This document shows, in pieces, positions 6,924 to 35,495 of a stretch of DNA of 36,826 nucleotides (the stretch's first letter is position 1; the number at the start of each line of letters is the position of its first letter). A program made the position numbers and the translations under genes. The stretch is from assembly GCA_017615275.1 (NCBI GenBank), contig JAGAAO010000016.1, positions 1 to 36,826 on the forward strand. Reading direction: 5' to 3'. The notes under the pieces are model-generated. The model was not told where the DNA came from and searched no databases. It worked only from the letters and a program-made list of their open reading frames with translations. This stretch comes from Butyrivibrio sp. (GTDB lineage Bacteria; Bacillota; Clostridia; Lachnospirales; Lachnospiraceae).

Positions 6924-7044
6924 TTCTGTAATAAATAAATTAGTGAATAAATCTACGGCAAAAAAACAGGCTTTTCTGTTCGGACTATTTGTTCTAAAAT
7001 TCTTAGTATATGGCATTCCCATAGAAGAGGAGACAATTTTAAAT

Positions 7045-7245: not shown

Positions 7246-7251
7246 AGCGTA

Positions 7252-8055: not shown

Positions 8056-8076
8056 TAACGATAAGGAAAATAGAAA

Positions 8077-8694: not shown

Positions 8695-8703
8695 AGAAAA
8701 ATG

Positions 8704-8740
8704 CGACCGAGTGCTTTTTACGCACCCGGTCGTATTTTTT
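8704..8740. terminator. Bidirectional terminator between tdk and the EF-hand gene
   Basis: CGACCGAGTGC (8704-8714) pairs with GCACCCGGTCG (8722-8732), with one mismatch. T runs follow on the plus strand and A runs precede, giving T runs on the minus strand. It serves two convergent genes. Confidence 0.85.
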
Positions 8741-13108: not shown

Positions 13109-13220
13109 GGGAGCATGTAGATAACCCACTCGATTAACCGTGTACAAAAGCGGTAGTGTCTTTTTTGTGCAAAAAAATAGATGATAATGGTAATAATTGT
13201 TCTATCAGGAGGAAAGATCC

Positions 13221-14879
13221 ATGTCCCTCATGGCGAACTTATATGTCGGTTCTTCGGGAATGCAGACATCGCAAAACGCATTAAATACAATAGCGCATAA
13301 CATGGCAAACCTTGATACCGAAGGCTATACAAGGCAGCAGATATCGCTTGGAACAAAAGCATATCAGACTCTTGAGCAGAGTAATAATTGTATTTCCTGG
13401 AAACAGATAGGAACCGGTGTCAATTACAATAATTGTAAACAGGTAAGGAGTACCTTCCTTGACAGTTCTTACAGACAGGAGTCGGGAAGATACGCTTTTT
13501 ATGACGTTTCCAAGAAAGCCATCGAAGAGGTAGAGGATCAGCTTCAGGAGATGAACGGAACTGAATTTGCCGAGTCACTTAATAACTTGTGGACAGCAGT
13601 TCAGGAACTTGCAAAAGACCCTACATCAGCAGTTACACAAAGTGCTCTGGTAACAAGAGCAAATGAGTTTTTGACAAGAGCTAAGAGCGTGTATGACGGA
13701 CTTGTTTCATATCAGGAGAATCTCGATTCGTCGATCACAGGAATAGTTAATGATATAAATAATTACGGAGACAGGATCAGAGAGCTTAACGAAGATATCG
13801 TAAATATTGAGGCAGGAAGACAGGAAAAGGCAAACGATCTCAGAGATGAGAGAAACCTCCTTCTTGACATGCTCGGACAGTACGGAAAGATTCAGTATTC
13901 CGAAGATGCTTTGGGAAATGTAACGGTTCTTTTTGAAGGATCGAGCTTTGTTACAACCGATCATGTCAATCATATAGGAATAGATACAAAACTTGAAAGC
14001 AGTGTCGGCTATGCAACTCCTTATTGGGAGTATGCTGCCGTTAAAGAATATGACAGAGACGGAAATGAGATTGTTACATCAATAGAAGGTGCACATATAT
14101 TCGATCTGTCACAGACTGTTTCTTCATCAATAAATACGGATATAGGAAAACTTAAGGCAGTTCTTCTTGCAAGAGGAGACCACAACGCAACATACCATGA
14201 CATAACTGAAAGCGAGGAATATTACAACAGAAACATCGCGCAGTCTGTAATTATGAATGTACAAGCTGAGTTTGATCAGATGGTGCATAACATAATGACA
14301 GAGATCAACAAGATCATGGAAGATGCTGAGAGTAATCCCGCTACAATGGATAATTCTCTCGGAAAAGCTTCGGATTTTTCAATGTTTATAGTTTCGAATC
14401 CCGATGATGTGATCGTCTACGATATAGATAAAGAGCATCCTGCGGGAAGCGTGTCAACAGGATTTACGATAAAGAATGCGCAGGTTAATCCCATTCTTTT
14501 ATCCGATCCGACAACTTTCACATTCAGGACAGTGGAAGGTAATGAGGATATAGCTACTATAAACGCGTTAAAAGAAGCTTTTACAAAAGAGCAATATACT
14601 TTGAACCCAAATGTTTCCACAAGAAACAATTTTATGACATATTACAACAGCTTCGTTTCACAGATAGCAGGATCCGGAGATGTATATAACAGTATCGCGG
14701 AAGCTCAGGAGCAGACGGTATCATCGATATCGGCAGCAAGAGAGCAGATAGTCGGAGTATCAAGCGATGAAGAACTTGAATATATGATCCAGTTCCAGAA
14801 TGCATATAACGCATCGAGCCGATATATAAACGTAGTAAGCGAGATGCTAGAGCACCTGGTAAGTACACTTGGTTCATAA
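13221..14879 (+). CDS. flgK: Flagellar hook-associated protein 1, FlgK (first copy)
   Basis: FlgK forms the first hook-filament junction ring. The protein has 552 residues. The N-terminal rod/hook signature is LYVGSSGMQTSQNALNTIAHNMANLDTEGYTRQQ (split here: LYVGSSGMQTSQNALNT, IAHNMANLDTEGYTRQ), followed by a long helical D1 region and a variable centre. The C-terminal helix EEELEYMIQFQNAYNASSRY-type segment is at about 518-552. ATG 13221 follows AGGAGG; the open frame upstream to 13197 is not used. A second FlgK follows 44 bases after the stop. The two differ enough to be separate paralogues. Confidence 0.94.
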   Translation: MSLMANLYVGSSGMQTSQNALNTIAHNMANLDTEGYTRQQISLGTKAYQTLEQSNNCISWKQIGTGVNYNNCKQVRSTFLDSSYRQESGRYAFYDVSKKAIEEVEDQLQEMNGTEFAESLNNLWTAVQELAKDPTSAVTQSALVTRANEFLTRAKSVYDGLVSYQENLDSSITGIVNDINNYGDRIRELNEDIVNIEAGRQEKANDLRDERNLLLDMLGQYGKIQYSEDALGNVTVLFEGSSFVTTDHVNHIGIDTKLESSVGYATPYWEYAAVKEYDRDGNEIVTSIEGAHIFDLSQTVSSSINTDIGKLKAVLLARGDHNATYHDITESEEYYNRNIAQSVIMNVQAEFDQMVHNIMTEINKIMEDAESNPATMDNSLGKASDFSMFIVSNPDDVIVYDIDKEHPAGSVSTGFTIKNAQVNPILLSDPTTFTFRTVEGNEDIATINALKEAFTKEQYTLNPNVSTRNNFMTYYNSFVSQIAGSGDVYNSIAEAQEQTVSSISAAREQIVGVSSDEELEYMIQFQNAYNASSRYINVVSEMLEHLVSTLGS

Positions 14880-14923
14880 CTTTGGTAAAAGAGTAAACTT
14901 CCTTGAAATCGGAGGAAAAGATT

Positions 14924-16771
14924 ATGCCATCTACTTTTTTTGGACTTAATATTGCTGCTTCGGGACTTAGAGCAGCCAATGCATCACTTAACACAACCGC
15001 AAATAACATATCCAATGCAAATACAGACGGATACAGCAGACAGGCTGTTAAACAGGAAGCAGCGAATGCAATCAGAGTATTTGCCAGATACGGCTGCGCA
15101 GGAGCGGGTGTTGATACTATCGCGATAGAGAGAGTTCGCGATAGCTTTTATGATGTTAAGTTCAGAAACAATGAGCAGCTCCTTGGAAATGTAAGTCAGA
15201 AGAATTATTACAACAAGCTTATCGAGCAGTATCTTGATGATGGAACTACCGGCTTTTCATCTCTTTTTAACAAGATGACGTCTTCGCTCCAGTCCGTTAT
15301 GACTGCGGCAGGAACATCAGAGACAAAGAGTACCTTCTTATCAAGCATGCGCAGTATCACAGAGTATTTTAACAACGCATACAATAATCTTCAGAGTGAG
15401 CAGGCTGACGTAAATGCAGAGGTTAAGCTCTGTGCCGACAGAATAAGTTCGATAGCGCAGGAGATCGCTTCGGTCAATAAGCAGATCAACATAATCGAGA
15501 TGTCGGGAAGTATTGCAAACGAACTCAGAGATAAGAGAGACGTGCTTATAGATGATCTTTCAAAGCTCGTTTCGGTAGAAACAAAGGAAACAGCTATTGT
15601 AGATGAGACACAGCCTGACAGAAATACGGGTGCAACACGTTTTCAGGTCTGGGTTGCGGGCGGATATGAGCTTGTTGATACTTATGAATACAGAAAGATG
15701 GTCTGTGTATCAAGAGATGCAGACGGCTCAATGAACCAGAATGACATAGAAGGTCTTTATGATATTAAGTGGGGAAGCGCAAGCTATAAGGATGGAGATA
15801 ATATAGCTGAGCTTGCTGATTTTGCCCTTGATTCAAGACTCATCGGCGGAGAACTTCAGGGACTTCTTGCTGTAAGAGACGGTAATAACGGACAGTATTT
15901 TAGCGGAAAGAGCGTAAAGGTTGACAGCAATGAAAAGCCTGTTAAGGTTACCGTTCAGGTTTCGGATACGCACCTTATGGATATGAATAAATGCACTATC
16001 CCTGTGACAGGATTGATCCATATCGGTGACAAGGACTATAAATATGATGATTGGGAATATAACGGAAGTGACACATATGTTTTCACTATAGATGATGACA
16101 CTCTTAAGAGTATTCCCGATGCGAATACAAAGGTAAACATCGGATATTTCAATGAATATCAGGGAATTCCGTATTATCTTGCTCAGATGAATGAGTGGAT
16201 AAGACAGTTTTCTTCAGCTGTTAACGATATCATGGTTTCAGGATATCCGTCAGGTTCGGATGAAGCGGGACAGAGCCTTCTTACAGGTGTTGTTGATCTG
16301 AATTCTACCGCTCAGTATACCTACGGGCAGTTTACTCAGGAATCGGAGAACAAAGGATATTACAGATTAAGAGGCGGAAATTTCGCTGTAAATGATGTGC
16401 TTTACAATGACTCTGACAGACTTGCTACAAGAGCGGATCTGACAGAGGGTGAGTCAGAATTCGGAAATCTCACCAAGCTGAGAGATATGTTTAATACTAA
16501 GAAGATATTCAGAGGAGCTACATCGGGTGAATTCCTAACCAAGATCCTTGCCGATGTTGCGCTTAATTCAAGCAATTCGGGAACACTTGAAAAAACATAT
16601 TCGGCACTCGAGACAACAATACAGAATCAGAGATTGTCCGAATCGGGCGTTGATGAGGATGAGGAAGCATCGAATCTTGTAAAGTTCCAGAATGCATACA
16701 CACTTTCATCCAAGATGATCCAGACTCTCACAGAAATATATGACAGACTCATACTTCAGACAGGGGTATAA
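14924..16771 (+). CDS. flgK: FlgK-type hook-associated protein (second copy)
   Basis: A 615-residue FlgK paralogue. The N-terminus (FFGLNIAASGLRAANASLNT, TANNISNANTDGYSRQ) keeps the family signature, with NISNANTDGYSRQ in the canonical form. The C-terminus (EEASNLVKFQNAYTLSSKMI) is the matching helix. It is longer than copy 1, and the central domains diverge strongly. ATG 14924 follows GGAGG; the frame upstream lacks a site. Whether both form one mixed ring or serve different positions or stages is unknown. A strong terminator follows, so flgM-flgN-flgK-flgK is probably one unit. Confidence 0.92.
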   Translation: MPSTFFGLNIAASGLRAANASLNTTANNISNANTDGYSRQAVKQEAANAIRVFARYGCAGAGVDTIAIERVRDSFYDVKFRNNEQLLGNVSQKNYYNKLIEQYLDDGTTGFSSLFNKMTSSLQSVMTAAGTSETKSTFLSSMRSITEYFNNAYNNLQSEQADVNAEVKLCADRISSIAQEIASVNKQINIIEMSGSIANELRDKRDVLIDDLSKLVSVETKETAIVDETQPDRNTGATRFQVWVAGGYELVDTYEYRKMVCVSRDADGSMNQNDIEGLYDIKWGSASYKDGDNIAELADFALDSRLIGGELQGLLAVRDGNNGQYFSGKSVKVDSNEKPVKVTVQVSDTHLMDMNKCTIPVTGLIHIGDKDYKYDDWEYNGSDTYVFTIDDDTLKSIPDANTKVNIGYFNEYQGIPYYLAQMNEWIRQFSSAVNDIMVSGYPSGSDEAGQSLLTGVVDLNSTAQYTYGQFTQESENKGYYRLRGGNFAVNDVLYNDSDRLATRADLTEGESEFGNLTKLRDMFNTKKIFRGATSGEFLTKILADVALNSSNSGTLEKTYSALETTIQNQRLSESGVDEDEEASNLVKFQNAYTLSSKMIQTLTEIYDRLILQTGV

Positions 16772-20076: not shown

Positions 20077-21261
20077 ATGCACATTCTATACTACTATTGG
20101 GATGAATTTAACGGCGAAGATTGCATGGATGCCATGAGAAGGCTCGGGCATGAAGTCGATATACTGAGGCTTGATCTTAAGACTTTCGAGCTTACGGATG
20201 AAGTAGAGGCAAGATTCAGAGAGGCCCTTACAAGAGAAGAGGTGGGGAAAAAATATTATGACATCGTATACAGCTTCGATTATTTCCCATGCATTTCGGA
20301 TGCCTGCCAAAAATACGGTACGCCCTATGTATCATGGGTATTTGATTGCCCGCACTATACACTGGATTCTCATACCATAAACAACCCTGTGAACAGAGTT
20401 TTTGTTTTTGATAAGGAATTATTCAGACTCATGAGGAACAAAGGAGTGGAGACAATAAATTATTCTCCGCTCGGAGTCAATGTAAAGAGATTGTCCCGGT
20501 TCTGCAAAGAACTGGATGAAGAGAACGGCGGCAGGATCTTCTATCGCCATGATGTGACTTTCCTCGGAAATCTGTATGATAACGAATATAACTTTTACGA
20601 TCAGGTGACATGTCTTCCTCCTGAACTGAAAGAATATATAGATGATGTGATCGGTCTTCAGGAGAAGATTTACGGTCGCGATCTTTTTACGGATGATAAA
20701 TATATAACTCCGGAACATGTGAAAAAGCTTCGTGAGTATATAAATTTTGAAAGAACAGGAAACTATGAGCTTGATTATGACGGCATAATTCTCGATATGC
20801 TCAGACATAAAGTGACTGTAAATGAGAGAAGACATATATTGGAGAAGATGGGAGAGAGGTTTGACACTTTTCTTTATACAACTCCCGATGCAAAGCATAT
20901 TGAAGGTGTGAAAAATATGGGCACTGCGGATTATTCCACGAAGATGCCGCTGATCTTCAGACAAAGTAAGATCAATCTCAATATTACGCTCAGATCCATT
21001 TTGTCGGGAGTGCCTCTTAGAGTAATCGACATTCTGGCTGCGGGCGGATTTCTTATCACTACGTATCAGAAAGAGATAGATGAGTATTTCGAGGACGGAG
21101 CGGATCTTGTTATTGCAAGAACTCCTGAGGAGATGATAGAAAAGACAGCATATTATCTTGAACATGAGGATGAAAGAAAAGCGATAGCGGCAAACGGACA
21201 GAAAAAAGTATTTGAAAAATTTGCTTATACAAAGCTTTTGCCCGGTATTTTGGAGGGATAA
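20077..21261 (+). CDS. CgeB/DUF3880-like glycosyltransferase in the flagellar operon
   Basis: A 394-residue GT-B-fold glycosyltransferase of the CgeB/DUF3880-Glyco_trans_1_2 type. The N-terminal Rossmann half starts MHILYYYWDEF and includes VSWVFDCPHY (about 89-98). The C-terminal nucleotide-sugar half contains KINLNITLRSILSGVPLRV, DILAAGGFLITTY and EIDEYFEDGADL (about 305-347), then the YLEHEDERKAIAANGQKK helix. No membrane segment is seen. It is paralogous to the minus-strand gene at 26644. Its place between csrA and flaG suggests glycosylation of flagellin or another filament protein. AGGAG precedes the ATG. Confidence 0.88.
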   Translation: MHILYYYWDEFNGEDCMDAMRRLGHEVDILRLDLKTFELTDEVEARFREALTREEVGKKYYDIVYSFDYFPCISDACQKYGTPYVSWVFDCPHYTLDSHTINNPVNRVFVFDKELFRLMRNKGVETINYSPLGVNVKRLSRFCKELDEENGGRIFYRHDVTFLGNLYDNEYNFYDQVTCLPPELKEYIDDVIGLQEKIYGRDLFTDDKYITPEHVKKLREYINFERTGNYELDYDGIILDMLRHKVTVNERRHILEKMGERFDTFLYTTPDAKHIEGVKNMGTADYSTKMPLIFRQSKINLNITLRSILSGVPLRVIDILAAGGFLITTYQKEIDEYFEDGADLVIARTPEEMIEKTAYYLEHEDERKAIAANGQKKVFEKFAYTKLLPGILEG

Positions 21262-24692: not shown

Positions 24693-24800
24693 TGTAAAAC
24701 AAAAAACAAGCAGCCATGGAAGGGACTCCGCGTAAGCTGCAAAATATTAAAGGATGAAAAGGCAGCAGGGAAGCGGGCCCCGTTCATGGAGGATAAGAAT
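24693..24800 (+). promoter_or_regulatory. Flagellin leader with candidate CsrA sites
   Basis: About 108 untranslated bases. A hairpin (GCAGC at 24710-24714 with GCTGC at 24736-24740) has GGA in its loop. AAAGGATGA contains GGA at 24752, and the ribosome binding site TGGAGGAT contains GGA at 24788 and 24791. A GGA upstream paired with one over the Shine-Dalgarno is the layout by which CsrA represses flagellin in Bacillus. The palindrome GGGCCC (24776-24781) could also fold. Confidence 0.5.
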
Positions 24801-25631
24801 ATGGTAGTACAACACAACGTCACAGCGATGAACGCTAACAGACAGCTTGGAATTACAACAAACGTACAGGCTAAGTCAAGCGAGAAACTTTCTTCAGGTT
24901 ACAAGATCAACAGAGCAGCAGATGATGCAGCAGGACTTGCAATTTCAGAGAAGATGAGACGTCAGGTGAGAGGTCTTACACAGGCTTCAGCAAATGCTCA
25001 GGATGGTATTTCAGCAGTACAGACTGCAGAAGGTGCTCTTAACGAAGTTCATGATATGCTTCAGAGAATGAATGAACTTGCAGTTAAGGCAGCAAACGAT
25101 ACTCTTACAACTGCAGATCGTAGTTACATCCAGAGAGAGGTTGATGCCCTTGTAAGCGAGATCCATAGAACGGGTGAGGCCACATCTTTCAACGACACAA
25201 AGCTTCTTGACGGAACATTCAAGAACAAGAACCTTCAGGTTGGTGCAGATAAGGACGATAACAACGTTATCAAGATCGATATCGTAGCTCTTACATCTTC
25301 AGGTCTTGAGATTGACGGATCAAAGGTTAAGGTTACAGGTTCAGACGGTGTTAATGCAAGAAACTCTATCGGAACAATTAAGGCAGCTCTTGAGAAGGTT
25401 TCTAAGCAGAGATCAGATCTCGGTGCTATTCAGAACAGACTTGAGCATACTATCAAGAACCTCGACAACGTAGTTGAGAATACACAGGCAGCTGAATCAC
25501 AGATCCGTGATACAGATATGGCTGAGGAAATGGTTAGATATTCTAATAACAATATCCTTGCTCAGGCAGGTCAGTCAATGCTTGCTCAGGCTAACCAGAC
25601 AAACCAGGGTGTACTTTCACTCCTTCAGTAA
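24801..25631 (+). CDS. hag: Flagellin (filament protein)
   Basis: The major filament subunit, 276 residues, a compact flagellin with D0/D1 and a very small central domain. N-terminal motifs are MVVQHNVTAMNANRQLGITT, SSEKLSSGYKINRAADDAAG and LAISEKMRRQVRGLTQASAN. The C-terminal ones are ESQIRDTDMAEEMVRYSNNN and ILAQAGQSMLAQANQTNQGV. The short exposed centre (about 160-200) has several Ser/Thr that could be glycosylated. ATG 24801 follows GGAGG at 9 bases; an in-frame ATG at 24786 lies over the site. It is a monocistron with its own sigma-28 promoter and terminator. Confidence 0.97.
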   Translation: MVVQHNVTAMNANRQLGITTNVQAKSSEKLSSGYKINRAADDAAGLAISEKMRRQVRGLTQASANAQDGISAVQTAEGALNEVHDMLQRMNELAVKAANDTLTTADRSYIQREVDALVSEIHRTGEATSFNDTKLLDGTFKNKNLQVGADKDDNNVIKIDIVALTSSGLEIDGSKVKVTGSDGVNARNSIGTIKAALEKVSKQRSDLGAIQNRLEHTIKNLDNVVENTQAAESQIRDTDMAEEMVRYSNNNILAQAGQSMLAQANQTNQGVLSLLQ

Positions 25632-25693: not shown

Positions 25694-26647
25694 TCAAAGA
25701 GTTTGTATTTTGGATAAAAATGTTTTGCAATCTTCATTAAATCGATTTTTTTCTCCGGCTATCATCTTCCTGTAGCTTTCGAAATCATTCTGATGGTCTT
25801 TGAAATTATCGCATATTTCATGAAGAAGAGTATCAAGATCATCAAGGGAATCTGCGGGAGATTCGAATTTGTATTTATCGGGGATGGGTACGTCACCTTC
25901 AAAAGCGGCGGCACCTTTTTTATTGGTGATAACACAGCAACCGTTGGCAGCGGCCTCGCGCGGAATGCGGTCTTTGCCGGGGTGATTTCCGAAGTCGACA
26001 TAGATCTTGCTGTTTTGCATCATAAATACCATGTGTTCGACATCGAGACCTGTAAGTGCCATCCATTTAAGCCACGATGTCTTGTCGATAAGAGGCTTAA
26101 GGTCTTCGTAGCCCTTGGCTGGATTATACAGCGCAATGTCCTGACGAAGATGCGCCGGGAAAATAAACTGTCCGTGCATATCGTTTATATAGTCTGAGAG
26201 ATACATCCCGTTCGCGCCGGGGATTTTTTTCTCTACATAATCTTTGGAATAATAGGATTGATAGAGGTGGAGAGATATTTCTTTTTTTATCCTTTCAAGG
26301 TTTGTTTCCTTGGTCGAAACGATGTAATTATCGACGCTCATCCACCAGAGGACTTTTTTTGCGTGCTTTATATACGGAATTGCAAGAGTGAGTCCTTCGG
26401 GGAATACAAAAACGGAATCCTCCTTATCCACTGCAGCGTAATCCACAACATGCTGCGTGTTATAGATTTTGTATGCTTCGGGAGCGGGAGTATCGGCTCC
26501 GAGATCCTCGCCGATTGGGAGATTTAAATCAACGTATATCATGTAAGCTGTTCCCGGAGCCAGTTCATTTAATCTGTGACACATTTGGTGTGCCAGTTCC
26601 GGGCCGCCGCTTGTTCTGTTTGCAGGTGCAAGTATGTATACGTTCAT
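25694..26647 (-). CDS. Glycosyltransferase-like protein (GT-B fold)
   Basis: A 317-residue protein. It has an N-terminal MNVYILAPANRTSGGPELAHQ (start of a nucleotide-binding half) and a central YLSDYINDMHGQF. The C-terminal half shows KIYVDFGNHPGKDRIPREAA and NGCCVITNKKGAAAF (about 220-255), the pattern of GT4-type polysaccharide enzymes, where Asp/Arg and Glu bind the sugar donor. No membrane segment is seen. It overlaps the upstream gene by 4 bases (ATGA), so the two are translationally coupled. Convergent with flagellin, it is a candidate for filament glycosylation. Confidence 0.8.
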   Translation of the reverse strand: MNVYILAPANRTSGGPELAHQMCHRLNELAPGTAYMIYVDLNLPIGEDLGADTPAPEAYKIYNTQHVVDYAAVDKEDSVFVFPEGLTLAIPYIKHAKKVLWWMSVDNYIVSTKETNLERIKKEISLHLYQSYYSKDYVEKKIPGANGMYLSDYINDMHGQFIFPAHLRQDIALYNPAKGYEDLKPLIDKTSWLKWMALTGLDVEHMVFMMQNSKIYVDFGNHPGKDRIPREAAANGCCVITNKKGAAAFEGDVPIPDKYKFESPADSLDDLDTLLHEICDNFKDHQNDFESYRKMIAGEKNRFNEDCKTFLSKIQTL

Positions 26648-27828
26648 GTGTTGTTCTCCATAATGATTTTGATGATCGCCATAACTCTGTTAAGAACGGA
26701 ATCTTCCGCGCACACTTTGTTGTAACCGTTTAGTGCGATGGCTTCGCGCTCTTCGTCGTGTTCAAGATAGTAATTTGTCTTTTCAACAAGTTCATCAAGT
26801 GAAGAATAAGTTTCCAAGTGGACACCCGGAGTAAGAAAAAGATCGATCTCCGGCTGATGATTGGTGAGAAGAAATCCGCCGCAGGCAAGGATGTCCCATA
26901 TTCTCTGAGGGAGTCCCGAACGGATCGATCTCATGGTTGTATTTATATTTATTTTGCTCTTTTTGAAAATGACGGGCATTTCCGTAAAGGATTTTGCAAT
27001 TCCGTTTTTATGCACCAGAGGAGAGATGTCTTTAGTATCACTTCCGGTGAAAAGATCGAGCCTTGCATCATGTATGTTTTCTGCAAGCGTATTTATCAGG
27101 AGTTTTCGCTCCATGACAGTGACGTGCGATCCGATATATTCATCAAGTGCGATCTGTCTGTCGAGATTTCTGACGCTGAGCGCAGAAGAATAGAAGTTCG
27201 GATCGGCATTTTTAATGCAGCTTATCTCATTATCCGTTAAAGTGCTTTCGATGTATTCAAGACCGTAGATCTTATCTTGCAGCTGATGTTTCATTTTTTC
27301 TTCGAGAGAATATTTCACATCAGACGGGATGGAAAGGGCACTGTACGGATCTTTCTCGGTATAAAGAGATCCGATAAAAGATACATCGTAGTCGTAGCCT
27401 TTTACGTTTTTCGTCGTGTCGGTCATTCTGTCTGTTGCCGCGCCAAGCGGAAGGTGATATATGCACTTCGGATTCACGCCTTTGATGGATTCATATTGTT
27501 TCTGATCAAAGAGAAAAAGCCTGTTGTAAGGACTTTTTATGGCATTGTTGTAGATCTCAAAGACAGGACAGTCTACTGAGACACAGATGTAGGGAATCTT
27601 AACCCTTTCACACACCATGGCAACAAATGGAAAAAAATTGATGGAAAAGATAAAAAGAGGCATATTGTCGGCGATGAGCTTTCCTAGATAGGTGATCTTG
27701 TCATTGACAGGGAGGGAATCGTCAAGTTGCCCCTGATTGTCTTCGATTATCGTTAAACCGACAGCCTTCAAAGCATTGATGTAGTAAGGCTCGCATATGC
27801 TGTTATATCTGTAAACAATCACATTCAT
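26644..27828 (-). CDS. CgeB/DUF3880-like glycosyltransferase, paralogue of the 20077 gene
   Basis: A 394-residue GT-B protein, the same length as the paralogue at 20077. Aligned motifs: ICVSVDCPVFEIYNNAIKSP (N-half); KININTTMRSIRSGLPQRI, DILACGGFLLTNHQ and EIDLFLTPGVHLETYSSLDE (C-half); and YLEHDEEREAIALNGYNKV. It is cytosolic. The start ATG 27828 has no strong ribosome binding site. It is divergent from the 27883 gene across 54 bases, so their promoters overlap. It overlaps the downstream glycosyltransferase by 4 bases. Confidence 0.88.
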   Translation of the reverse strand: MNVIVYRYNSICEPYYINALKAVGLTIIEDNQGQLDDSLPVNDKITYLGKLIADNMPLFIFSINFFPFVAMVCERVKIPYICVSVDCPVFEIYNNAIKSPYNRLFLFDQKQYESIKGVNPKCIYHLPLGAATDRMTDTTKNVKGYDYDVSFIGSLYTEKDPYSALSIPSDVKYSLEEKMKHQLQDKIYGLEYIESTLTDNEISCIKNADPNFYSSALSVRNLDRQIALDEYIGSHVTVMERKLLINTLAENIHDARLDLFTGSDTKDISPLVHKNGIAKSFTEMPVIFKKSKININTTMRSIRSGLPQRIWDILACGGFLLTNHQPEIDLFLTPGVHLETYSSLDELVEKTNYYLEHDEEREAIALNGYNKVCAEDSVLNRVMAIIKIIMENNT

Positions 27829-27852
27829 AGATTTATTTTACCACAATTTTGA

Positions 27853-27858
27853 TATAAT
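27853..27858 (+). promoter_or_regulatory. Possible promoter of the glycan operon
   Basis: An exact TATAAT at 27853-27858 stands 24 bases before the 27883 start. The -35 is poor: TTTATT at 27832 gives a 15-base spacer. The signal lies in the 54-base gap shared with a divergent gene. Confidence 0.35.
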
Positions 27859-27882
27859 GATGATTGGGGGATTGGAGAAATA

Positions 27883-28962
27883 ATGAAGAATACTGAGCTT
27901 ATAAAACAGATCAACGAGATTTTGGCGTATATATACGATAACTGCGAGAAGATGGGAAAAAGCGGAGTGCATGACAGCTTTTTGTCTGTGTATAAAACAC
28001 TTAGCGAAAACATCAGCTGTCCTGAAAATGAGAATTCTCTTCTGCAGTTGTATAAAGAGGCGGATGAAAATATTCTGGATATAGGCAGGCTCAGAATACT
28101 TGCGATGGATGCAATCATTAAATATGCATGCAGCGCGGAAGATGACGGATTGTCTTCGAAAGTGACGGACAGTCTGAAAAGTGCCTACGATGAGATTAAG
28201 AAGAAAAATGAACAGATCGAAAACGTAATGGAATACGTCGATCAGATAAATCATATAAGAACAAAATATCACATGAGGTATTCAGAGCCCTCCGACAGAT
28301 TTGAGGGGAAGGGCGTTGTCTATACCGTGATAACAGGCGATTATGACCATATAAGAGAGCCTGAAACAGGTGAATCGGGGCTTTCCTATATTCTTTTGAC
28401 AGATAAAGAAAAACCCGGATACACGGGAAAGTGGGAAGTACGGCTTATTGATAACCCGGAAAACCTCGACAGTGTGAGATTTTCGCGATATCCCAAAATG
28501 CTTCCGCATATTTTTTTCCCGGACTATGACTATTCTGTATATGTAGACGGTTCTATCGTTATAAAAAAAGATATGCGAAGTTTTATAGATACTTACAGAA
28601 GAGATTCGGGTATGTTGTGTTTTCCACATTTTAGTTCAAACAGCATAGAAGATGAGGCAGAGCTCCTTGTTGAGCGCGGAAAGGCTGATAAGGAAGTGCT
28701 TGATAAACAGATAGAGGATTACAAAAAGAGCGGCTACTCATCAAGAGGTTATATTGCAGAACTTGGCTGTATTGTCAGAGATCACAGAGATGAAGCGCTT
28801 AAGAAAGTGATGCAGGACTGGTGGGATGAATATATGGCATATGATCATAAGAGAGATCAGATGAGTTTTGATTATGTCTGTCAAAAGAACAATTATATTT
28901 ATGATCTGTGTGATCTTTCGGTATATGTAAATCCATGGTTTGACATAGATAAGATACATTGA
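27883..28962 (+). CDS. DUF616/TOD1-type glycosyltransferase with N-terminal helical domain
   Basis: A 359-residue protein. Residues 1-135 are helical (ENVMEYVDQINHIRTKYHMR ends this part). Residues ~144-350 match the DUF616 (TOD1/MUCI70) glycosyltransferase pattern: GVVYTVITGDYDHIREP, YILLTDKE, the acidic YSVYVDGSIVIKKDM (a DxD-like VDGS), FPHFSS, KSGYSSRGYIAELGCIVRDH and QDWWDEY...KRDQMSFDYVCQ. The family is known from plants and bacterial polysaccharide loci. The start at 27883 follows GGAG. Position at the head of the glycan run suggests a step in the same pathway. Confidence 0.82.
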   Translation: MKNTELIKQINEILAYIYDNCEKMGKSGVHDSFLSVYKTLSENISCPENENSLLQLYKEADENILDIGRLRILAMDAIIKYACSAEDDGLSSKVTDSLKSAYDEIKKKNEQIENVMEYVDQINHIRTKYHMRYSEPSDRFEGKGVVYTVITGDYDHIREPETGESGLSYILLTDKEKPGYTGKWEVRLIDNPENLDSVRFSRYPKMLPHIFFPDYDYSVYVDGSIVIKKDMRSFIDTYRRDSGMLCFPHFSSNSIEDEAELLVERGKADKEVLDKQIEDYKKSGYSSRGYIAELGCIVRDHRDEALKKVMQDWWDEYMAYDHKRDQMSFDYVCQKNNYIYDLCDLSVYVNPWFDIDKIH

Positions 28963-29007
28963 GAAAATACTAAAAAAAGTATTGTTTATTGTTTGCGAGG
29001 GGGTAAT

Positions 29008-29715
29008 ATGAGTAATTTCAGGCTTACGGCGTCTATGATGTGCGCCGATTTCGGCAATCTTGAGAAGGAGGTCAGAGAACTTGAGGCTGCCGGGATAGAT
29101 TCTTTTCATATAGACATAATGGATGGTCGTTATGTCCATAACTTCGCTATGTCACTGTATGATATGGCAAGCATAGCAAGGATCAGCAGTAAACCCCTTG
29201 ATGTGCATCTTATGATAGAACATCCGAGAAACAATATAGATCTTTTTCTGAGTGCGCTCAGGAAGGGAGATACGGTCTATATCCATCCTGAGGCGGAGTA
29301 TCATCCGTCTGCGACAATCCAGAAGATAATTGATTACGGAATGCATCCGGGAATCGCGATCAATCCGGGAACCAGTGTGGAGTCTGTCAAAGAGCAGCTT
29401 CGTATCGTCGACAAAGTTCTTGTAATGGCGGTAAATCCCGGAAATGCGAGCCAGATGTTCCTTCCGTTTGTAGGTGAGAAAGTGGATGCGCTTCTGCATC
29501 TCAGAAAGAAGATGGGATTTGAGCTTTGGTGGGACGGAGCCTGCGGAGCAGACAGAATGAAAGAATATGTTCCGAAGAAGATGGACGGTTTTGTCCTCGG
29601 TACAACGGTTCTGTTCGGAAAATCAGCAACATACGCCGAAATAATACCGGCGATCAAAGAACTTGATTTTTCATATCTGTATAAGGAGATACCTGTAGGT
29701 GATGGAGTTTATTGA
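29008..29715 (+). CDS. Ribulose-phosphate 3-epimerase-family protein
   Basis: A 235-residue TIM-barrel enzyme of the RPE family. The expected metal ligands are visible: Ser9, His34 and Asp36 (HIDIMDG), His67 (DVHLMIEHP) and Asp176 (WWDGACG). GIAINPGT is also present. The phosphate-binding loop differs from standard Rpe, with VNPGNASQMF instead of VEPGFGGQ-like and WDGACG instead of VDGGI. Another sugar phosphate is therefore possible. ATG 29008 is chosen because GAGGGGG precedes it. It sits between two glycan genes and overlaps the LicD gene by 17 bases, tying it to the polysaccharide pathway rather than the pentose phosphate route. Confidence 0.85.
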   Translation: MSNFRLTASMMCADFGNLEKEVRELEAAGIDSFHIDIMDGRYVHNFAMSLYDMASIARISSKPLDVHLMIEHPRNNIDLFLSALRKGDTVYIHPEAEYHPSATIQKIIDYGMHPGIAINPGTSVESVKEQLRIVDKVLVMAVNPGNASQMFLPFVGEKVDALLHLRKKMGFELWWDGACGADRMKEYVPKKMDGFVLGTTVLFGKSATYAEIIPAIKELDFSYLYKEIPVGDGVY

Positions 29716-31798
29716 TAACAGAGAAGAAATGAATACGGTTCCGCTTGAGAATATCAGTTTTCCAAAATCTTTTTTCAGAGAGGAAGTCAGAAACGGTTTC
29801 TACATCCCGACGATGATAAAGCGTTATTGGGCGGGGCAGTTGCAGATCCTTTCCGAGATACACAAACTGTGTAAAAAACATAACATCAAGTGGTTTGCCG
29901 ATTACGGAACGCTTCTTGGCGCAGTCAGGCACGGCGGATACATTCCGTGGGACGATGATTTTGATATCTGCATGATGCGCGATGATTACGAGCGCTTTTT
30001 TGAGATTGCCAAAAAAGAGTTTCCAAAAGAATATATTATTCTCTTGCTCAGGGATTACGAAGAATATGACAATGCTCTCGGCAGGATCGTCAATTGCCAT
30101 TCGATAGATTGCAGTAAGGATCATATGGATATGTTCAGCGGATGTCCTTATACTGTCGGAGTCGATATTTTCCCGCTCGACGGCATGTACAGAGATGAAG
30201 CCAAGGAAAAAGAGCGAGTTGAGAGACTTAAGAGGGCTGTCATTGCTCATGATGCGGTAGCAATGCAAAACGATCTGGGTGAACTTGCCAAAAATATTGA
30301 ACTTCTTATATTGGGAGTTGAAAAAGATAATCATGTTAAGCTTAAAAGAGGAAAGAAGCTGAAACATGAGCTTGAGAAACTTATTGAAAAAATATATATG
30401 GAGTGTCCTGTATCCGAGGCTGATAAAGTAGCTTTGATGCCTTTTTATTTTATGTACGGAGATCATGTGTATCCCAAAGAGTTCTATAATGATGCTTTTG
30501 ACATGAAGTTTGAGAATACAACAGTAAAAGTTCCGTGTTGTTATGATCAGAAATTGTCGAGCGATTACGGCAACTATATGGAGATACGAAAAGGCGGCGG
30601 TATGCATGAGTATCCCGCATATGTCAGTCAGGAGAGGGCTCTCAGAAAGAAGCTCGGCAATAATCCTTACACATATACTTTTGATCCAAACGAGATGCTT
30701 GTATCCGTAAAAAGATATATGGTAAGAACATTGTCTCAGCGTTCCGAAAAAGAGAAGAAGAAAGTTGTGTTCCTTCCTTGCAGAGCACAGTGGTGGAATA
30801 CAATGGAAGGCCTTTGGTATGACTATAAGACAAAAGGACATGATGTCCATGTTGTTCCGATAAATTTCTACGACTGTGATTATTTCGGAGGCGTGGGAGA
30901 AATGCATGATGAGAGGAGTCTTTTCCCGAAATACCTAGACGTTGAGGATTGCGAGACATTTGATTTTGTGGAAGACAGACCTGACGTTATTGTGATTCAG
31001 GTTCCTTATGATGCGTACAATACTGCACTTACGGTGCATGAGCTTTTTTATTCGAAAAGTCTTTTGAACGTGACTGATGAGCTCGTATATGTGCCGTGCT
31101 TTGATATTGACGATCCGATAGACAGTGAAGATAAGGCGTGCAGAGGAATTGAGATACTTGCGGAGCAGTCTGCGGTTGTCAATTCTGACAAGGTGCTGCT
31201 TAAATCCGAGAAGCAAAGAGAACTTTATCTTAAGAGGCTTATAGAACTTGCAGGAGAAGAGACACGCGCCTATTGGGAGCAGAAGATTCAGGTTTCACCT
31301 CTTGTCGGAGCGGATTGGAGAGAACGCGCAGACATAGACGCATCAGGTGCTATACAGGCCGCTATAGATGAAGAAGCTGCGAAAGATGCAGAAACTCTTG
31401 ATTCTGAGTGGAATGAGTTTCTTGGCGAGTATAAGGGACGCAAGGCTGTTGTATATTATTTTGGCATCAGTACATTTATGCAGCACAAGGATAAAGCTGT
31501 AGATAAGTTTGAGAGAGTTCTGGAAACATTTGAGGAGAGCTCCGATAAGGTTGTGGCTGTCTTTGTTCCTCAGGATTATCTGACGGCTAATATTGATATT
31601 GCGGATCCTAAGCTTGTTGAAAGATACAACGCTTTTGTAAAAAAGGTAAAAGAGACTAAAGGTTGCATCTTTGATGAGGAGAACAGGAGCCTTAAGTTTG
31701 TGGAAAAATGGAGTGGATATTACGGAGATACGGGAGTTGTTGCCATGGACTGCCTGGGAAAACATATACCCGTAATGCTTCAGAATATTAATATTTGA
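29699..31798 (+). CDS. LicD-family phosphotransferase fused to a large C-terminal domain
   Basis: A 699-residue protein. The N-terminal ~300 residues form a LicD/nucleotidyltransferase-fold domain with WFADYGTLLGAVRHGGYIPW and DDDFDICMMRDDYERF (65-100), the metal-binding DDDFD cluster. LicD proteins attach phosphocholine or phosphorylated sugars to glycans. Residues ~365-699 (from KKVVFLPCRAQWWNTMEG) form a second alpha/beta domain resembling the GT-B/CDP-glycerol phosphotransferase type, common in Lachnospiraceae LicD fusions but not assignable here. The start may be GTG 29699 (AAGGAG 10 bases upstream) or ATG 29702. It overlaps the preceding gene. Confidence 0.85.
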   Translation: MMEFIDNREEMNTVPLENISFPKSFFREEVRNGFYIPTMIKRYWAGQLQILSEIHKLCKKHNIKWFADYGTLLGAVRHGGYIPWDDDFDICMMRDDYERFFEIAKKEFPKEYIILLLRDYEEYDNALGRIVNCHSIDCSKDHMDMFSGCPYTVGVDIFPLDGMYRDEAKEKERVERLKRAVIAHDAVAMQNDLGELAKNIELLILGVEKDNHVKLKRGKKLKHELEKLIEKIYMECPVSEADKVALMPFYFMYGDHVYPKEFYNDAFDMKFENTTVKVPCCYDQKLSSDYGNYMEIRKGGGMHEYPAYVSQERALRKKLGNNPYTYTFDPNEMLVSVKRYMVRTLSQRSEKEKKKVVFLPCRAQWWNTMEGLWYDYKTKGHDVHVVPINFYDCDYFGGVGEMHDERSLFPKYLDVEDCETFDFVEDRPDVIVIQVPYDAYNTALTVHELFYSKSLLNVTDELVYVPCFDIDDPIDSEDKACRGIEILAEQSAVVNSDKVLLKSEKQRELYLKRLIELAGEETRAYWEQKIQVSPLVGADWRERADIDASGAIQAAIDEEAAKDAETLDSEWNEFLGEYKGRKAVVYYFGISTFMQHKDKAVDKFERVLETFEESSDKVVAVFVPQDYLTANIDIADPKLVERYNAFVKKVKETKGCIFDEENRSLKFVEKWSGYYGDTGVVAMDCLGKHIPVMLQNINI

Positions 31799-31853
31799 CG
31801 GTTTGCGTTATTAATGGCTGAAACTCGCATACTTAAAGCATATTACAAAAAAA

Positions 31854-31883
31854 TTAGCAATTTTATGTGAAAAGTAGTATATT
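31854..31883 (+). promoter_or_regulatory. Possible internal promoter before rfbF
   Basis: TTAGCA (31854-31859), 18 bases, TATATT (31878-31883) in the 118-base gap. No terminator is present in this gap, so the operon may also read through. Confidence 0.35.
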
Positions 31884-31916
31884 GCTAGAAGAACCAATGG
31901 AAGGAAAATGATTTAA

Positions 31917-32696
31917 ATGAAAGTTGTAATTTTAGCGGGAGGCTTCGGAACACGAATCAGTGAAGAAAGCCATCTTCGCCCAAAGCCGATGATAGAGATC
32001 GGTGGCAAGCCGATTCTTTGGCACATAATGAAAGAGTATTCATATTACGGTTTTAATGAATTCATAATATGCGCGGGATATAAGCAGGAAGTCATAAAGG
32101 AGTATTTCGCAAATTATTATCTTCACAACTGCGATGTGACTTTCGATTTTGCAAATGAGAACAAGACAACGTTCCATTCACAGAAGGCGGAACCTTGGAA
32201 GGTAACCGTCGTTGATACCGGATACAGCACTATGACCGGTGGACGTATCAAGAGAATAAGAGAGCATGTCGGAAATGAGGCCTTCTTCATGACTTATGGA
32301 GATGGTGTGTGCGATATCGACATGACAAAGCTTCTTGAGTTTCACAAGGCAAACGGCAAGCTTGCAACAGTTACAGCGATTCTTGCAGGCCAGCGTTTTG
32401 GTGTATTTGATATTGATAAAGACGATAGTTCAGTCATTAAGGATTTCAGAGAAAAGGCAAGTATGGACGGAGCCAGAATAAATGGCGGTTATATGGTACT
32501 TGAGCCCGGAGTTTTTGATTATATCGAGGGCGACGCAACATTCTTTGAAAAAGAGCCTATGCACAATCTTGTAAAAGACGGACAAATGGCTGCATACAAG
32601 TATGACGGCTTCTGGAAATGTATGGACACAGCAAGAGAAAGGGATGAGTTGTCGGAACTTGTTGAGACCGGTAGAGCGCCCTGGATCAGGTGGTAA
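31917..32696 (+). CDS. rfbF: Glucose-1-phosphate cytidylyltransferase
   Basis: Makes CDP-glucose from CTP and glucose-1-phosphate, the first step to CDP-3,6-dideoxyhexoses. The protein has 259 residues. The nucleotide-binding signature LAGGFGTRISEESHLRPKPM is at 6-25, followed by EIGGKPILWHIMKEYS, the acidic TYGDGVCDID (about 125-134) and NGGYMVLEPGVFDYI. Length and motifs match RfbF (DdhA). AAGGAAAATG precedes the ATG. No 4,6-dehydratase (RfbG) is present in the window, so the pathway must use genes elsewhere or a different route. Confidence 0.95.
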   Translation: MKVVILAGGFGTRISEESHLRPKPMIEIGGKPILWHIMKEYSYYGFNEFIICAGYKQEVIKEYFANYYLHNCDVTFDFANENKTTFHSQKAEPWKVTVVDTGYSTMTGGRIKRIREHVGNEAFFMTYGDGVCDIDMTKLLEFHKANGKLATVTAILAGQRFGVFDIDKDDSSVIKDFREKASMDGARINGGYMVLEPGVFDYIEGDATFFEKEPMHNLVKDGQMAAYKYDGFWKCMDTARERDELSELVETGRAPWIRW

Positions 32697-32698
32697 GA

Positions 32699-34546
32699 AT
32701 GAGAGTTTCTGATTATATAGCGGAATTTTTGGTAAAGAAGGGCGTCACCGACTGTTTCACTGTAGTAGGCGGTGGCGCTATGTATTTGAATAATTCTTTT
32801 GGACATACCGAAGGTATGACATGTACGCACTTTCATCATGAGCAGGGAGCTGCAATAGCGGCTGAGAGCTACTCAAGGTACGATGGGAAAGTTGCGGCGC
32901 TTTGCGTGACTTCAGGCCCCGGCGGCACAAATGCCATAACGGGAGTTTTGGGAGGATGGCTTGATTCGCTTCCGATGTTTGTTGTGAGCGGACAGGTCCG
33001 CTATGACACTACGGTAAGGTACGCCAATAAACTTTGGGGAAAAGAGTACGACTGCGAGGGAATCCGCTCTCTCGGAGATCAGGAGTACGATATAACCCGC
33101 ATGACGGAGCATATGTGTAAATATGCCGTGATGCTTGAGGATCCTGCGGATATAAGATATCACATGGAAAAAGCGTGGCATCTTATGAATACGGGAAGAC
33201 CCGGACCTGTATGGATCGATGTTCCCGTCAATTTCCAGGGGGCTGAGATCAATCCCGAAGAGCTTAAGGGATACAGTGAGGAAGAGGCGGCAGCTTATGC
33301 GGCAAAAGTTCCTCCTGTGGAAAAAAAGACTGTAGATAAAGTAATTGAGATGATAAAAGAGGCGGAGCGCCCTGTAATATATGCAGGCGGCGGAGTCCGC
33401 ATTTCGGGAGGCTTTGAAGCCTTCAGGAAAGTTGTTGATAAACTCGGCGTTCCCGTGTGCACATATTGGAACTCGGTTGATCTGATCGAGAGCGAGAATC
33501 CGCTTTACTGCGGACGTGGCGGCAATATGGGAGACAGACCGGGTAACTTTGCGATACAGAATTCGGATCTTGTTCTTGTCATAGGCAGCAGGCTTTCCAT
33601 AAGACAGGTCGGATATACCTGGGGAACATGGGCAAGAGCGGCAAAGGTCATTATGGTCGATATCGAGCCATATGAGATGGAGAAGCATACGGTTCATGTT
33701 GATATGAAGATCCATGCGGATGCCAAGGATTTTCTTGAGAAACTGCTTGGCGCAGCACAGGAGCTTGGAAACGAAGGCTATGTTTCTTCGGCAGATGCCT
33801 GGAGAAAACAGTGCGTTCTCTGGAAGAAAAAATATCCTGTAGTATCTGAGGAGCAGTTCCACACAGGAGATGCACAGGTCAATGTATACGGATTTATGAA
33901 GGCTCTTTCTGAGGAACTTCCCGCCGGAAGTCTTACTGCGGTAAGTAACGGAGCTTGCTGCGTTGCGGGACATCAGAGCTGGTTTATAAAAGAGGGTTCA
34001 AGATTTATAATAAATAATGCAGTGGCAAGTATGGGATACGGTCTCCCTGCTGCGATAGGACTTTGCATTGCAGCGGGCAGAAAAGAGACTATATGTCTTG
34101 AGGGAGACGGAAGCATAATGATGAATCTTCAGGAGCTTCAGACTGTTATTACGAACAAGCTTCCCATCAAGGTATATCTCATAAACAATGAGGGCTATCA
34201 TTCCATAAGGCTTACTCAGAACAATCTTTTCAAAGAGTATTCCAAAGTGGGAATCGGTCCCGAGAGCGGAGATCTGGCTTTTCCTTCATTTGAGAAGATA
34301 GCGGATGCCTTTGGTTATCCTTATATGGTCATCCATAAAGGAAAAGAGCTTGAGCAGAAGATCAAGGAATCCATCAATATGACCTCTCCGATATTTGTTG
34401 AAATTTACACAGACACGGAGCAGGTATGGGCGCCTAAGAGTTCTGCAAGAAGAGAGCCTGACGGTAGCCTTACCAGTCCTCCTTTGGAGGATCTTGCACC
34501 TTTCCTTTCAAGGGAAGAACTCGCTGAAAATATGTATATAGACTAA
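32699..34546 (+). CDS. IlvB-like thiamine diphosphate-dependent enzyme
   Basis: A 615-residue three-domain TPP enzyme (PYR, central, PP). The N-terminal part shows VVGGGAMYLN and FHHEQGAAIAAESYSR with the catalytic Glu, then SGPGGTNAITGVLGGW. The central domain has RPVIYAGGGVRISGG. The PP part has GDGSIMMNLQELQT and VYLINNEGYHS (the diphosphate-binding GDG-x-NN). Members include acetolactate synthase; in CDP-sugar loci a relative (YerE) adds a two-carbon unit to a keto-sugar. Directly after rfbF (2 bases), a role in making a branched sugar is plausible, but it is inference. An alternative GTG at 32690 overlaps rfbF. Confidence 0.88.
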   Translation: MRVSDYIAEFLVKKGVTDCFTVVGGGAMYLNNSFGHTEGMTCTHFHHEQGAAIAAESYSRYDGKVAALCVTSGPGGTNAITGVLGGWLDSLPMFVVSGQVRYDTTVRYANKLWGKEYDCEGIRSLGDQEYDITRMTEHMCKYAVMLEDPADIRYHMEKAWHLMNTGRPGPVWIDVPVNFQGAEINPEELKGYSEEEAAAYAAKVPPVEKKTVDKVIEMIKEAERPVIYAGGGVRISGGFEAFRKVVDKLGVPVCTYWNSVDLIESENPLYCGRGGNMGDRPGNFAIQNSDLVLVIGSRLSIRQVGYTWGTWARAAKVIMVDIEPYEMEKHTVHVDMKIHADAKDFLEKLLGAAQELGNEGYVSSADAWRKQCVLWKKKYPVVSEEQFHTGDAQVNVYGFMKALSEELPAGSLTAVSNGACCVAGHQSWFIKEGSRFIINNAVASMGYGLPAAIGLCIAAGRKETICLEGDGSIMMNLQELQTVITNKLPIKVYLINNEGYHSIRLTQNNLFKEYSKVGIGPESGDLAFPSFEKIADAFGYPYMVIHKGKELEQKIKESINMTSPIFVEIYTDTEQVWAPKSSARREPDGSLTSPPLEDLAPFLSREELAENMYID

Positions 34547-34558
34547 AGAGGTACAGAA

Positions 34559-35197
34559 GTGAATTTTAACAGAAAAAAAGGAAGCAAAGGAGTTAGGCTG
34601 ATCGCACTGATTCTTTTGGCATTTATGGTTTTGACCGCAATAAGTTCAGGTCTTATGGCGGCAAACAGTTATTCGGAAAATGAACCTGGAGCGGCAAATT
34701 CCGGACAGGTGGTCGACTTTTCGGCAGAGGATCTGTCACTGTTGTTTCCTGACGGATCCGGAGATGAGTCGGCAAATGCCATAACTCTGGACGCGAGAGA
34801 TCTTTTGTCAATGTCTTCCGAAGAAACATCGGACGTGGGGCAGCAGACGGATAGCACTCTTGCAGAGGACGGAGTCTATACTTCAAAAGAGGATGTGGCT
34901 CTTTATATTCATACTTACGGTAAACTGCCTTCAAACTTTATCACCAAGAATGATGCAAAAAAACTTGGCTGGAACGGCGGCGGTCTTGAAGAAGTTGCTC
35001 CGGGAAAAAGCATAGGCGGAGATACTTTCGGAAACTACGAAGGAAAACTTCCCGAGGATAAAAAGTATAAAGAATGCGATATCGATACTATGGGAGCCGC
35101 TTCAAGAGGAGCAAAGAGAATAGTTTACTCCGATGACGGCTATGTATATTATACAGACGATCATTACGAGAACTTTGAACAGCTGTATGAACCTTAA
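34559..35197 (+). CDS. Secreted barnase-type ribonuclease
   Basis: A 212-residue protein. The N-terminal signal is LIALILLAFMVLTAISSGLMA (split: LIALILLAFMVL, TAISSGLMA) after a basic stretch, followed by an acidic propeptide-like region (about 40-105). The C-terminal ~105 residues align with barnase: KLPSNFITKNDAKKLGW, EVAPGKSIGGDTFGNYEGKL, KECDIDTMGA and RIVYSDD, TDDHYENF. The catalytic residues of barnase, Glu73, Arg87 and His102, correspond to Glu172, Arg187 and His202; Lys27 to Lys130. Arg59 is replaced by Tyr160. GTG start 34559 follows GAGG. A barstar-like gene follows. Confidence 0.92.
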   Translation: MNFNRKKGSKGVRLIALILLAFMVLTAISSGLMAANSYSENEPGAANSGQVVDFSAEDLSLLFPDGSGDESANAITLDARDLLSMSSEETSDVGQQTDSTLAEDGVYTSKEDVALYIHTYGKLPSNFITKNDAKKLGWNGGGLEEVAPGKSIGGDTFGNYEGKLPEDKKYKECDIDTMGAASRGAKRIVYSDDGYVYYTDDHYENFEQLYEP

Positions 35198-35219
35198 GGA
35201 TTATAAAGGGAACACTACT

Positions 35220-35495
35220 ATGGAAAAGGTTTTTTATATTGATCTAAATGAGATATCTACACGGGAAGGATTGCAGGAGGCAATAGCAAGTGCACTTCCT
35301 TTTCCCGATCATTACGGTAAAAATCTTGATGCATTGCACGATTCGTTGTGTGAGTTTGGATCGGATTGGAACATTATTTTTTATAACGTCAGAATTGCCC
35401 GGATGTCTCTGGGCAAATATTTTGATGCGTTAAAACGCCTTTGTTCTGAGGCGTGCGAAGAATGTGCCGGACTAAAAATAAGATTTTTTTCTTAA
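35220..35495 (+). CDS. Barstar-family inhibitor of the adjacent RNase
   Basis: A 91-residue cytosolic protein. PDHYGKNLDALHDSL aligns with barstar PEYYGENLDALWDCL, keeping the inhibitory Asp35 and Asp39. A Glu near the C-terminus (SEACEEC) occupies the place of Glu76. Barstar blocks barnase in the cytoplasm so that the cell survives making it. It begins 22 bases after the RNase stop, the standard toxin-inhibitor pair order. ATG 35220 follows a poor AAAGGG; an upstream open frame to 35133 overlaps the RNase and is disregarded. Confidence 0.9.
   Translation: MEKVFYIDLNEISTREGLQEAIASALPFPDHYGKNLDALHDSLCEFGSDWNIIFYNVRIARMSLGKYFDALKRLCSEACEECAGLKIRFFS

Follow-up and report, generated by a model that had tools for sequence, protein, structure and literature searches.

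The window, i.e. the whole stretch of DNA analysed (36,826 bases), is the entire contig C81 of the draft Butyrivibrio genome G000 (3.18 Mb, 99 contigs), a genus placed by the taxonomy record in the Lachnospiraceae, Bacillota. Next to the flagellin gene fliC it shows an island of seven open reading frames (ORFs), which encode, in this order, three predicted glycosyltransferases, a ribulose-phosphate 3-epimerase (RPE)-like protein, a LicD fusion protein, the cytidylyltransferase RfbF and a thiamine pyrophosphate (TPP)-dependent enzyme, followed by genes for a barnase, a barstar and a CitMHS transporter (Table 1). An initial annotation had read these seven genes as a candidate flagellin-glycan island, in which RfbF and the TPP enzyme would point to a cytidine diphosphate (CDP)-linked branched sugar and LicD to a phosphate-linked decoration; all seven are present with complete frames, and the adjacent flagellin is confirmed by Pfam. 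None of the seven has six or more predicted membrane segments, nor even a single one.

Table 1. Coordinates, strand and supporting matches of the flagellin gene, the island genes and a related glycosyltransferase gene of the window.
Feature	Coordinates	Strand	Supporting evidence
fliC, flagellin, presumed acceptor	24786..25631	+	Flagellin_N 4e-41, Flagellin_C 2e-29 (Pfam)
Probable GT-B type glycosyltransferase without Pfam family	25694..26647	-	Weak fold match
DUF3880 + Glyco_trans_1_2 glycosyltransferase	26644..27828	-	Pfam
TOD1/MUCI70-like glycosyltransferase	27883..28962	+	Pfam PF04765, E 1e-16
RPE-like protein	28993..29715	+	Pfam 7e-45; 163 bits, below the rpe equivalog cut-off of 213
LicD phosphotransferase fused to a C-terminal region	29699..31798	+	Pfam LicD 2e-39
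rfbF, glucose-1-phosphate cytidylyltransferase (predicted to make CDP-glucose)	31917..32696	+	TIGR02623 377 bits, cut-off 300; PDB 1tzf 318 bits
YerE-like TPP-dependent carboligase (predicted)	32690..34546	+	Three TPP-enzyme domains; PDB 8rph 412 bits
DUF3880/Glyco_trans_1_2 glycosyltransferase between fliW and flaG, outside the island	20077..21261	+	Pfam; same families as 26644-27828

Two of the three glycosyltransferases are borne out by Pfam families, as are the epimerase, although below its equivalog cut-off, and the LicD domain. The third glycosyltransferase (25694-26647) matched no family in Pfam or NCBIfam; its copies are 57-81% identical across five aligned relatives, and its predicted model, of low confidence (predicted local distance difference test, pLDDT, 55.7), resembles GT-B glycosyltransferases (best PDB match 8xsh, E 6.6e-6), so the label is plausible but weak. 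The C-terminal part of the LicD fusion, to which no Pfam family corresponds, shows a predicted GT-B-like fold (pLDDT 77.6); among the 50 Foldseek matches listed, UDP-GlcNAc 2-epimerases and further enzymes of GT-B fold prevail, with a TM-score by target of at most 0.45. The identity of RfbF stands above its curated cut-off, and the start of the TPP gene overlaps the end of rfbF.

The YerE-like enzyme and the proposed CDP-branched-sugar pathway

The TPP enzyme had been described as IlvB-like. Its best match among solved structures is 8rph (412 bits, residues 3-615), against 215 bits for the best acetolactate synthase. The PDB title of 8rph is only 'thiamine pyrophosphate-binding protein'; we take it to be JanthE of Janthinobacterium, the nearest solved sequence over the full length of the window enzyme. 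The CDG motif of 8rph in the printed alignment fits what PMC12247030 (cited here, like the other PMC papers below, from partial text) says of JanthE. The window enzyme shows a canonical GDG instead (residue 472, in a motif ending in NN), and shares with 8rph the C-terminal SPPLEDL motif and an aligned HHEQ (residue 49). Since the GDG...NN cofactor motif and the catalytic glutamate are also present in acetolactate synthases, they are not specific for the YerE-like class. A TPP frame was recovered in 54 of 75 loci inspected, where frames were found by motif search and L014-L020 repeat genomes also among L021-L041; all 54 have the canonical GDG and 44 the strict C-terminal pattern. By these comparisons the enzyme is nearer to YerE-like enzymes than to acetolactate synthases, a class assignment based on 8rph and on the co-occurrence given below, not on a Yersinia sequence. 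YerE takes activated acetaldehyde from pyruvate and joins it to CDP-3,6-dideoxy-4-keto-D-glucose; YerE-like lyases are called the sole decarboxylase subclass known to use isolated ketones, and the donor varies among the characterised enzymes (PMC12247030). Used as query, the window enzyme recovered seven loci in named genomes, all belonging to Butyrivibrio (66-88% identity). A plasmid collection was not useful as a source of relatives: the matches listed are about 30% identical and mostly ilvG-type genes.

No 4,6-dehydratase or later CDP-sugar enzyme is found among the window ORFs scanned, as the initial annotation had noted in proposing a genome search for rfbG and rfbH; both genes lie on contig C61 of the same genome, together with a short-chain dehydrogenase/reductase (SDR) gene. 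RfbG matches TIGR02622 with 426 bits (cut-off 278) and RfbH (L011:5586-6968) matches NF011936 with 709 bits (cut-off 423), and RfbF, RfbG and RfbH are all above curated cut-offs within one genome. C61 shows the gene run RfbG, RfbH, SDR and two family 2 glycosyltransferase (GT2)-type proteins, one of them with tetratricopeptide repeats (TPRs), near prfB and secA, which were assigned from their translations; a further protein was read in the same way as a putative UDP-galactopyranose mutase. The SDR gene adjoins rfbH and its product belongs to the Pfam Epimerase family. No ORF of this sugar operon shows a predicted membrane segment, and since the same holds for the window island, neither encodes a flippase or a polymerase. 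This type of gene set is kept in 15 of the 20 RfbG/H loci fetched, which were picked from 45 RfbG-positive genomes. RfbH shows the cysteines Cys196, 258, 260 and 268 (C-X61-C-X-C-X7-C), a near match to what we take to be the iron-sulphur pattern, and its His227 aligns with the pyridoxal phosphate lysine of PseC; RfbH therefore resembles a dehydrase more than an aminotransferase.

The pathway genes are found together well beyond this genome. Among 79 genomes of the genus, RfbG is present in 45, TPP in 43, RfbH in 42 and RfbF in 41; 38 genomes contain all four, 32 none and nine a part of them, and RfbH is present in 40 of the 43 TPP-positive genomes. In the family (397 genomes, TPP matches with E up to 1e-80), the TPP enzyme is found in 133, RfbG in 153 and both in 122, i.e. 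RfbG occurs in 122 of 133 genomes with TPP and in 31 of 264 without it (p 2e-58, the co-occurrence p-values here ignoring the relatedness of genomes). TPP loci were fetched from 40 of the 42 other TPP-positive genomes of the genus (all except G041 and G054); 26 of these loci have RfbF as the immediate neighbour of TPP. L054 shows RfbG, RfbH, RfbF, an SDR (30% identical to that of C61) and TPP as neighbours, and L049, L051, L056 and L057 show SDR, TPP and RfbG in that order, with SDRs 42-45% identical to that of C61. In the 28 short loci of other genera, RfbH adjoins TPP in 10, and seven (L108, L112, L115, L118, L120, L122 and L126) have the order RfbH-TPP-SDR, with SDRs 26-29% identical to that of C61. 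Thus, the pathway genes are split differently between lineages, yet kept as a set. Their presence in the genome, their co-occurrence and their clustering in relatives strongly support the proposed CDP-branched-sugar synthesis, and the pathway, apart from an E3-type reductase that was not found, is well supported at the sequence level. It also looks common in Lachnospiraceae, with YerE-like TPP enzymes in about a third of the genomes sampled (133/397); 59 of the 133 genomes are without a flagellin match.

Flagellin as the likely acceptor, and other possible destinations of the sugar

The window is proposed to contain a short form of a flagellin glycosylation island. Eight relatives, which were picked because flagellin was no more than about 85 kb away on that contig and are not a random sample, show a stretch of 20-76 kb from flagellin to the RfbF-TPP pair, the latter at the distal end, downstream of flagellin and on the same strand; G004 and G050 have a contig start within the island stretch, which is cut by the contig end and has a flagellin inside. 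The eight islands contain 315 ORFs of at least 100 amino acids: three have at least three membrane segments, predicted by hydropathy only, and one at least six. In the controls, at least six segments were predicted in 9 of 50 ORFs of an exopolysaccharide-type region (60 kb) in the same genome and in 30 of 330 ORFs around RfbG/H. A polysaccharide locus needs a flippase and a polymerase somewhere, whereas cytoplasmic flagellin glycosylation does not. The 116 ORFs scanned by Pfam, those of the two islands lying whole in one tile (G003 and G007), include 17 Glycos_transf_2 and eight Glyco_trans_1_2 proteins, and L014, L017 and L020 show one GT2-TPR gene between LicD and RfbF. An independent arrangement is seen in L134, from another genome of the genus, where flagellin (8356-9795, translated), rfbF (9958), rfbH (10803) and rfbG (12183) follow one another on a single strand. 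The gap between flagellin and the start of rfbF is about 150 bp in L059, and in L042 TPP is beside fliW, flgL and flgK. This gene context makes flagellin the likely acceptor.

Taken as a whole, these data are probably best explained by a flagellin island joined to a split CDP-branched-sugar pathway. From the gene families, their presence in one genome, their co-occurrence and their linkage, we infer every enzyme activity, the exact sugar and the acceptor as follows. The distal end of the island, with rfbF and the YerE-like TPP carboligase, would encode the first and the branching steps of a CDP-linked C-4-branched 3,6-dideoxy sugar. RfbF would form CDP-glucose, RfbG would convert it into CDP-4-keto-6-deoxyglucose, and RfbH would remove the 3-OH with some electron donor, which in an anaerobe may be ferredoxin. 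The window TPP enzyme would then decarboxylate pyruvate or a longer 2-keto acid and transfer the acyl group to C-4, and the SDR of C61 would reduce the new ketone to give a yersiniose-like CDP-sugar. The cytoplasmic glycosyltransferases of the island, possibly with the GT2-TPR protein of C61, would build an O-glycan with the branched sugar on flagellin while the protein is still in the cell; a phospho-substituent such as phosphocholine would be added by the LicD fusion. In its most specific form, to which we give an even chance, the proposal is that the flagella of Butyrivibrio bear an O-glycan containing a 3,6-dideoxy octose branched at C-4 (yersiniose- or erwiniose-like), perhaps together with phosphocholine. 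In this form the CDP pathway would be split, its first and branching enzymes being encoded at the distal end of a flagellin island that varies greatly, and single-chain YerE-like synthesis would be common in Lachnospiraceae and outside lipopolysaccharide (LPS). By arithmetic, the residue predicted on flagellin peptides has a mass of 174.089 Da (hydroxyethyl, C8H14O4) or 172.074 Da (acetyl, C8H12O4).

Several results weigh against a flagellin island joined to this pathway. On the pathway side, the SDR of C61 reaches no specific family cut-off. The E3 reductase serving RfbH is expected to have a FAD_binding_6 domain; a search of G000, which is 84.8% complete, for this domain, the only one tested for E3, gave no match, and the genus shows only weak matches of 21-27 bits in 25 of 79 genomes. 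On the flagellin side, a scan for a sigma-D-like promoter pattern (null mean 0.77 strict matches) gave five strict matches in the window (12058, 12178, 17005 and 21307 on the forward strand and 24590 on the reverse strand), none of which precedes the glycan genes or, on the same strand, fliC; co-regulation is thus neither supported nor excluded by the scan. In the family, flagellin is found in 74 of 133 TPP-positive and 138 of 264 TPP-negative genomes (p 0.59); with no such association, many species must use the pathway for other glycans. All 79 genomes of the genus contain flagellin, including the 32 without any of the four pathway genes, and the pathway is thus not needed for flagella. Of the 12 relatives from other genera that reach 60% identity or more, seven have no flagellin match, and among the flagellin matches listed for G028, G036, G047 and G070 none is on the RfbF-TPP contig. 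Flagellar genes lie inside eight of 41 TPP loci and none of 20 RfbG/H loci (p 0.04), two of the matches being weak; without these two the figure is six of 41 (p 0.16). The flagellar part of the initial proposal is thus favoured by the position of the island downstream of flagellin, its near lack of predicted membrane segments and the order fliC-rfbF-rfbH-rfbG in L134, and has no counterpart in a flagellin association across the family. A fair reading is that of a general CDP-branched-sugar pathway which Butyrivibrio has tied into its flagellin island.

The lack of a link between TPP and flagellin in the 397 family genomes and the seven flagellin-free relatives also speak for an alternative, which we consider unlikely: that the CDP-branched sugar is real but destined for exopolysaccharide or another envelope glycan, the adjacency to flagellin being due to chance or to a shared integration site. 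The position of the C61 operon near secA-prfB, the 20 of 20 RfbG/H loci without a flagellar gene and the abundant exopolysaccharide made by Butyrivibrio (PMC2914790) agree with it, but neither the window island nor the C61 sugar operon shows any predicted membrane segment, flagellin directly adjoins rfbF in L134 and L059, and polytopic ORFs amount to 1 of 315 in the eight islands against 9 of 50 in the exopolysaccharide-type control, a comparison in which, of eight polytopic control proteins scanned, only three have a Pfam match, one of them to EpsG, and no flippase family is among the matches. One CDP-sugar pool could also feed both flagellin and exopolysaccharide.

It is similarly doubtful, and would be a variant of the flagellin-island explanation that leaves its core intact, that the TPP enzyme is YerE-like but makes another sugar, either from a longer or hydroxylated 2-keto acid, as in ErwE, or from CDP-4-keto-6-deoxyglucose without 3-deoxygenation. 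The lack of an E3-type partner for RfbH, the different donors of the characterised YerE-like enzymes (PMC12247030) and the presence of TPP without RfbH in G041, G053 and G063 would fit this variant, against which stand the frequent pairing of RfbH with TPP in the genus and their adjacency in the short loci of other genera. An ordinary acetolactate synthase placed beside rfbF by chance is highly improbable and was rejected on scores and co-occurrence, given that the top NCBIfam score of the enzyme, for the acetolactate synthase large subunit, is 327 bits under a cut-off of 538, that 8rph scores nearly twice as high as the best acetolactate synthase structure, that the enzyme co-occurs with RfbG, and that the window ORFs scanned include no ilvN-like gene and no other gene for branched-chain amino acids.

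Known systems, LicD and neighbouring genes

The gene set resembles that of CDP-yersiniose synthesis in Yersinia pseudotuberculosis in containing RfbF, RfbG, RfbH and a single-chain YerE-like TPP carboligase in one genome, with an SDR as candidate ketoreductase; it differs in belonging to a Bacillota anaerobe, in having its genes divided between a flagellar island and an operon elsewhere in the genome, and in the E3-type reductase, which was not found. The AviB1/AviB2-type system, for which attachment of an acetyl branch to C-4 of a keto-sugar has been proposed (PMC4753412), is a two-protein system of Gram-positive antibiotic producers, whereas here the enzyme is single-chain and YerE-like. Flagellin islands of Geobacillus, Enterobacteriaceae and Clostridium likewise show glycosyltransferase and nucleotide-sugar genes beside flagellin, with variable length and content; the window differs from them in its YerE-like branching enzyme and LicD fusion, and the words thiamine and LicD are absent from the main text of PMC5109656, PMC13317340 and PMC4875605. 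The initial annotation considered the gene set new for a flagellar glycan, and it is less new than that: CDP-4-keto-6-deoxyglucose genes are contained in type 23 of the enterobacterial flagellar islands (PMC4875605), and in Butyrivibrio proteoclasticus B316, of the same genus, the polysaccharide loci EPSL3 and EPSL4 flank the flagellar genes, the flagellar cluster separating the two exopolysaccharide loci, which were likened to flagellar glycosylation islands in 2010 (PMC2914790). The same paper cites the glycosylated flagella of Pseudobutyrivibrio ruminis OR77, and its main text does not contain the word CDP. Butyrivibrio is also among the few Gram-positive genera with glycosylated flagellin (PMC5109656, PMC13317340). 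Among the matches listed in the open-access literature, as far as titles and the opening lines of abstracts show, none links flagellin to yersiniose-type sugars, and the main text of one review contains none of the strings 'flagell', 'Lachnospir' and 'Clostridi'. Thus, a flagellar glycosylation island in Butyrivibrio has already been proposed, and a YerE-type pathway within one was not found in print; the in silico list of YerE-like enzymes to which PMC12247030 refers may already include some from Lachnospiraceae.

Branched sugars of this type are so far known mainly from LPS and antibiotics, and those branched by YerE-like enzymes have been described from LPS, including a mycobacterial one (PMC12247030). 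If the flagellin-island explanation is true, gut and rumen commensals would have a rare sugar on flagellin, a protein recognised by host immune receptors. The Lachnospiraceae sequences also supply further candidate enzymes of the class sought for tertiary-alcohol synthesis.

The phosphate-linked decoration suggested from LicD finds a parallel in one relative. The sole polytopic protein of the eight islands, in G010, is a betaine/carnitine/choline (BCCT) family transporter. It belongs to a lic-like set (L034:481-3582) of BCCT transporter, nucleotidyltransferase and choline kinase genes, and the next gene on the other side of the transporter is LicD-like, 40% identical to that of the window, which suggests phosphocholine decoration in the G010 species on sequence grounds. 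In L018 (Butyrivibrio, goat reticulum), the genes for the pseudaminic acid enzymes PseC and PseB (6867-9162), both above cut-off, lie directly before rfbF-TPP, a position that counts for the flagellin link.

The flagellar operon of the window contains two FlgK-like genes, a gene encoding a flagellin-domain protein taken as FlgL, fliW, a DUF3880 glycosyltransferase gene, flaG, fliD, fliS, an FlgN-like gene, whose score is under its cut-off, and fliC. The FlgK-like genes are in tandem (13197-16771) and encode proteins of 560 and 622 amino acids, and the sigma-D-like patterns at 17005 and 21307 precede the FlgL-like gene and flaG. Immediately following the TPP gene, the window shows (34559-35495) a barnase-type ribonuclease gene with a signal-peptide-like start, followed by a barstar gene. 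This pair is at the same place in L014, L015, L016, L017 and L020, and more distant in L018 and L026-L029.

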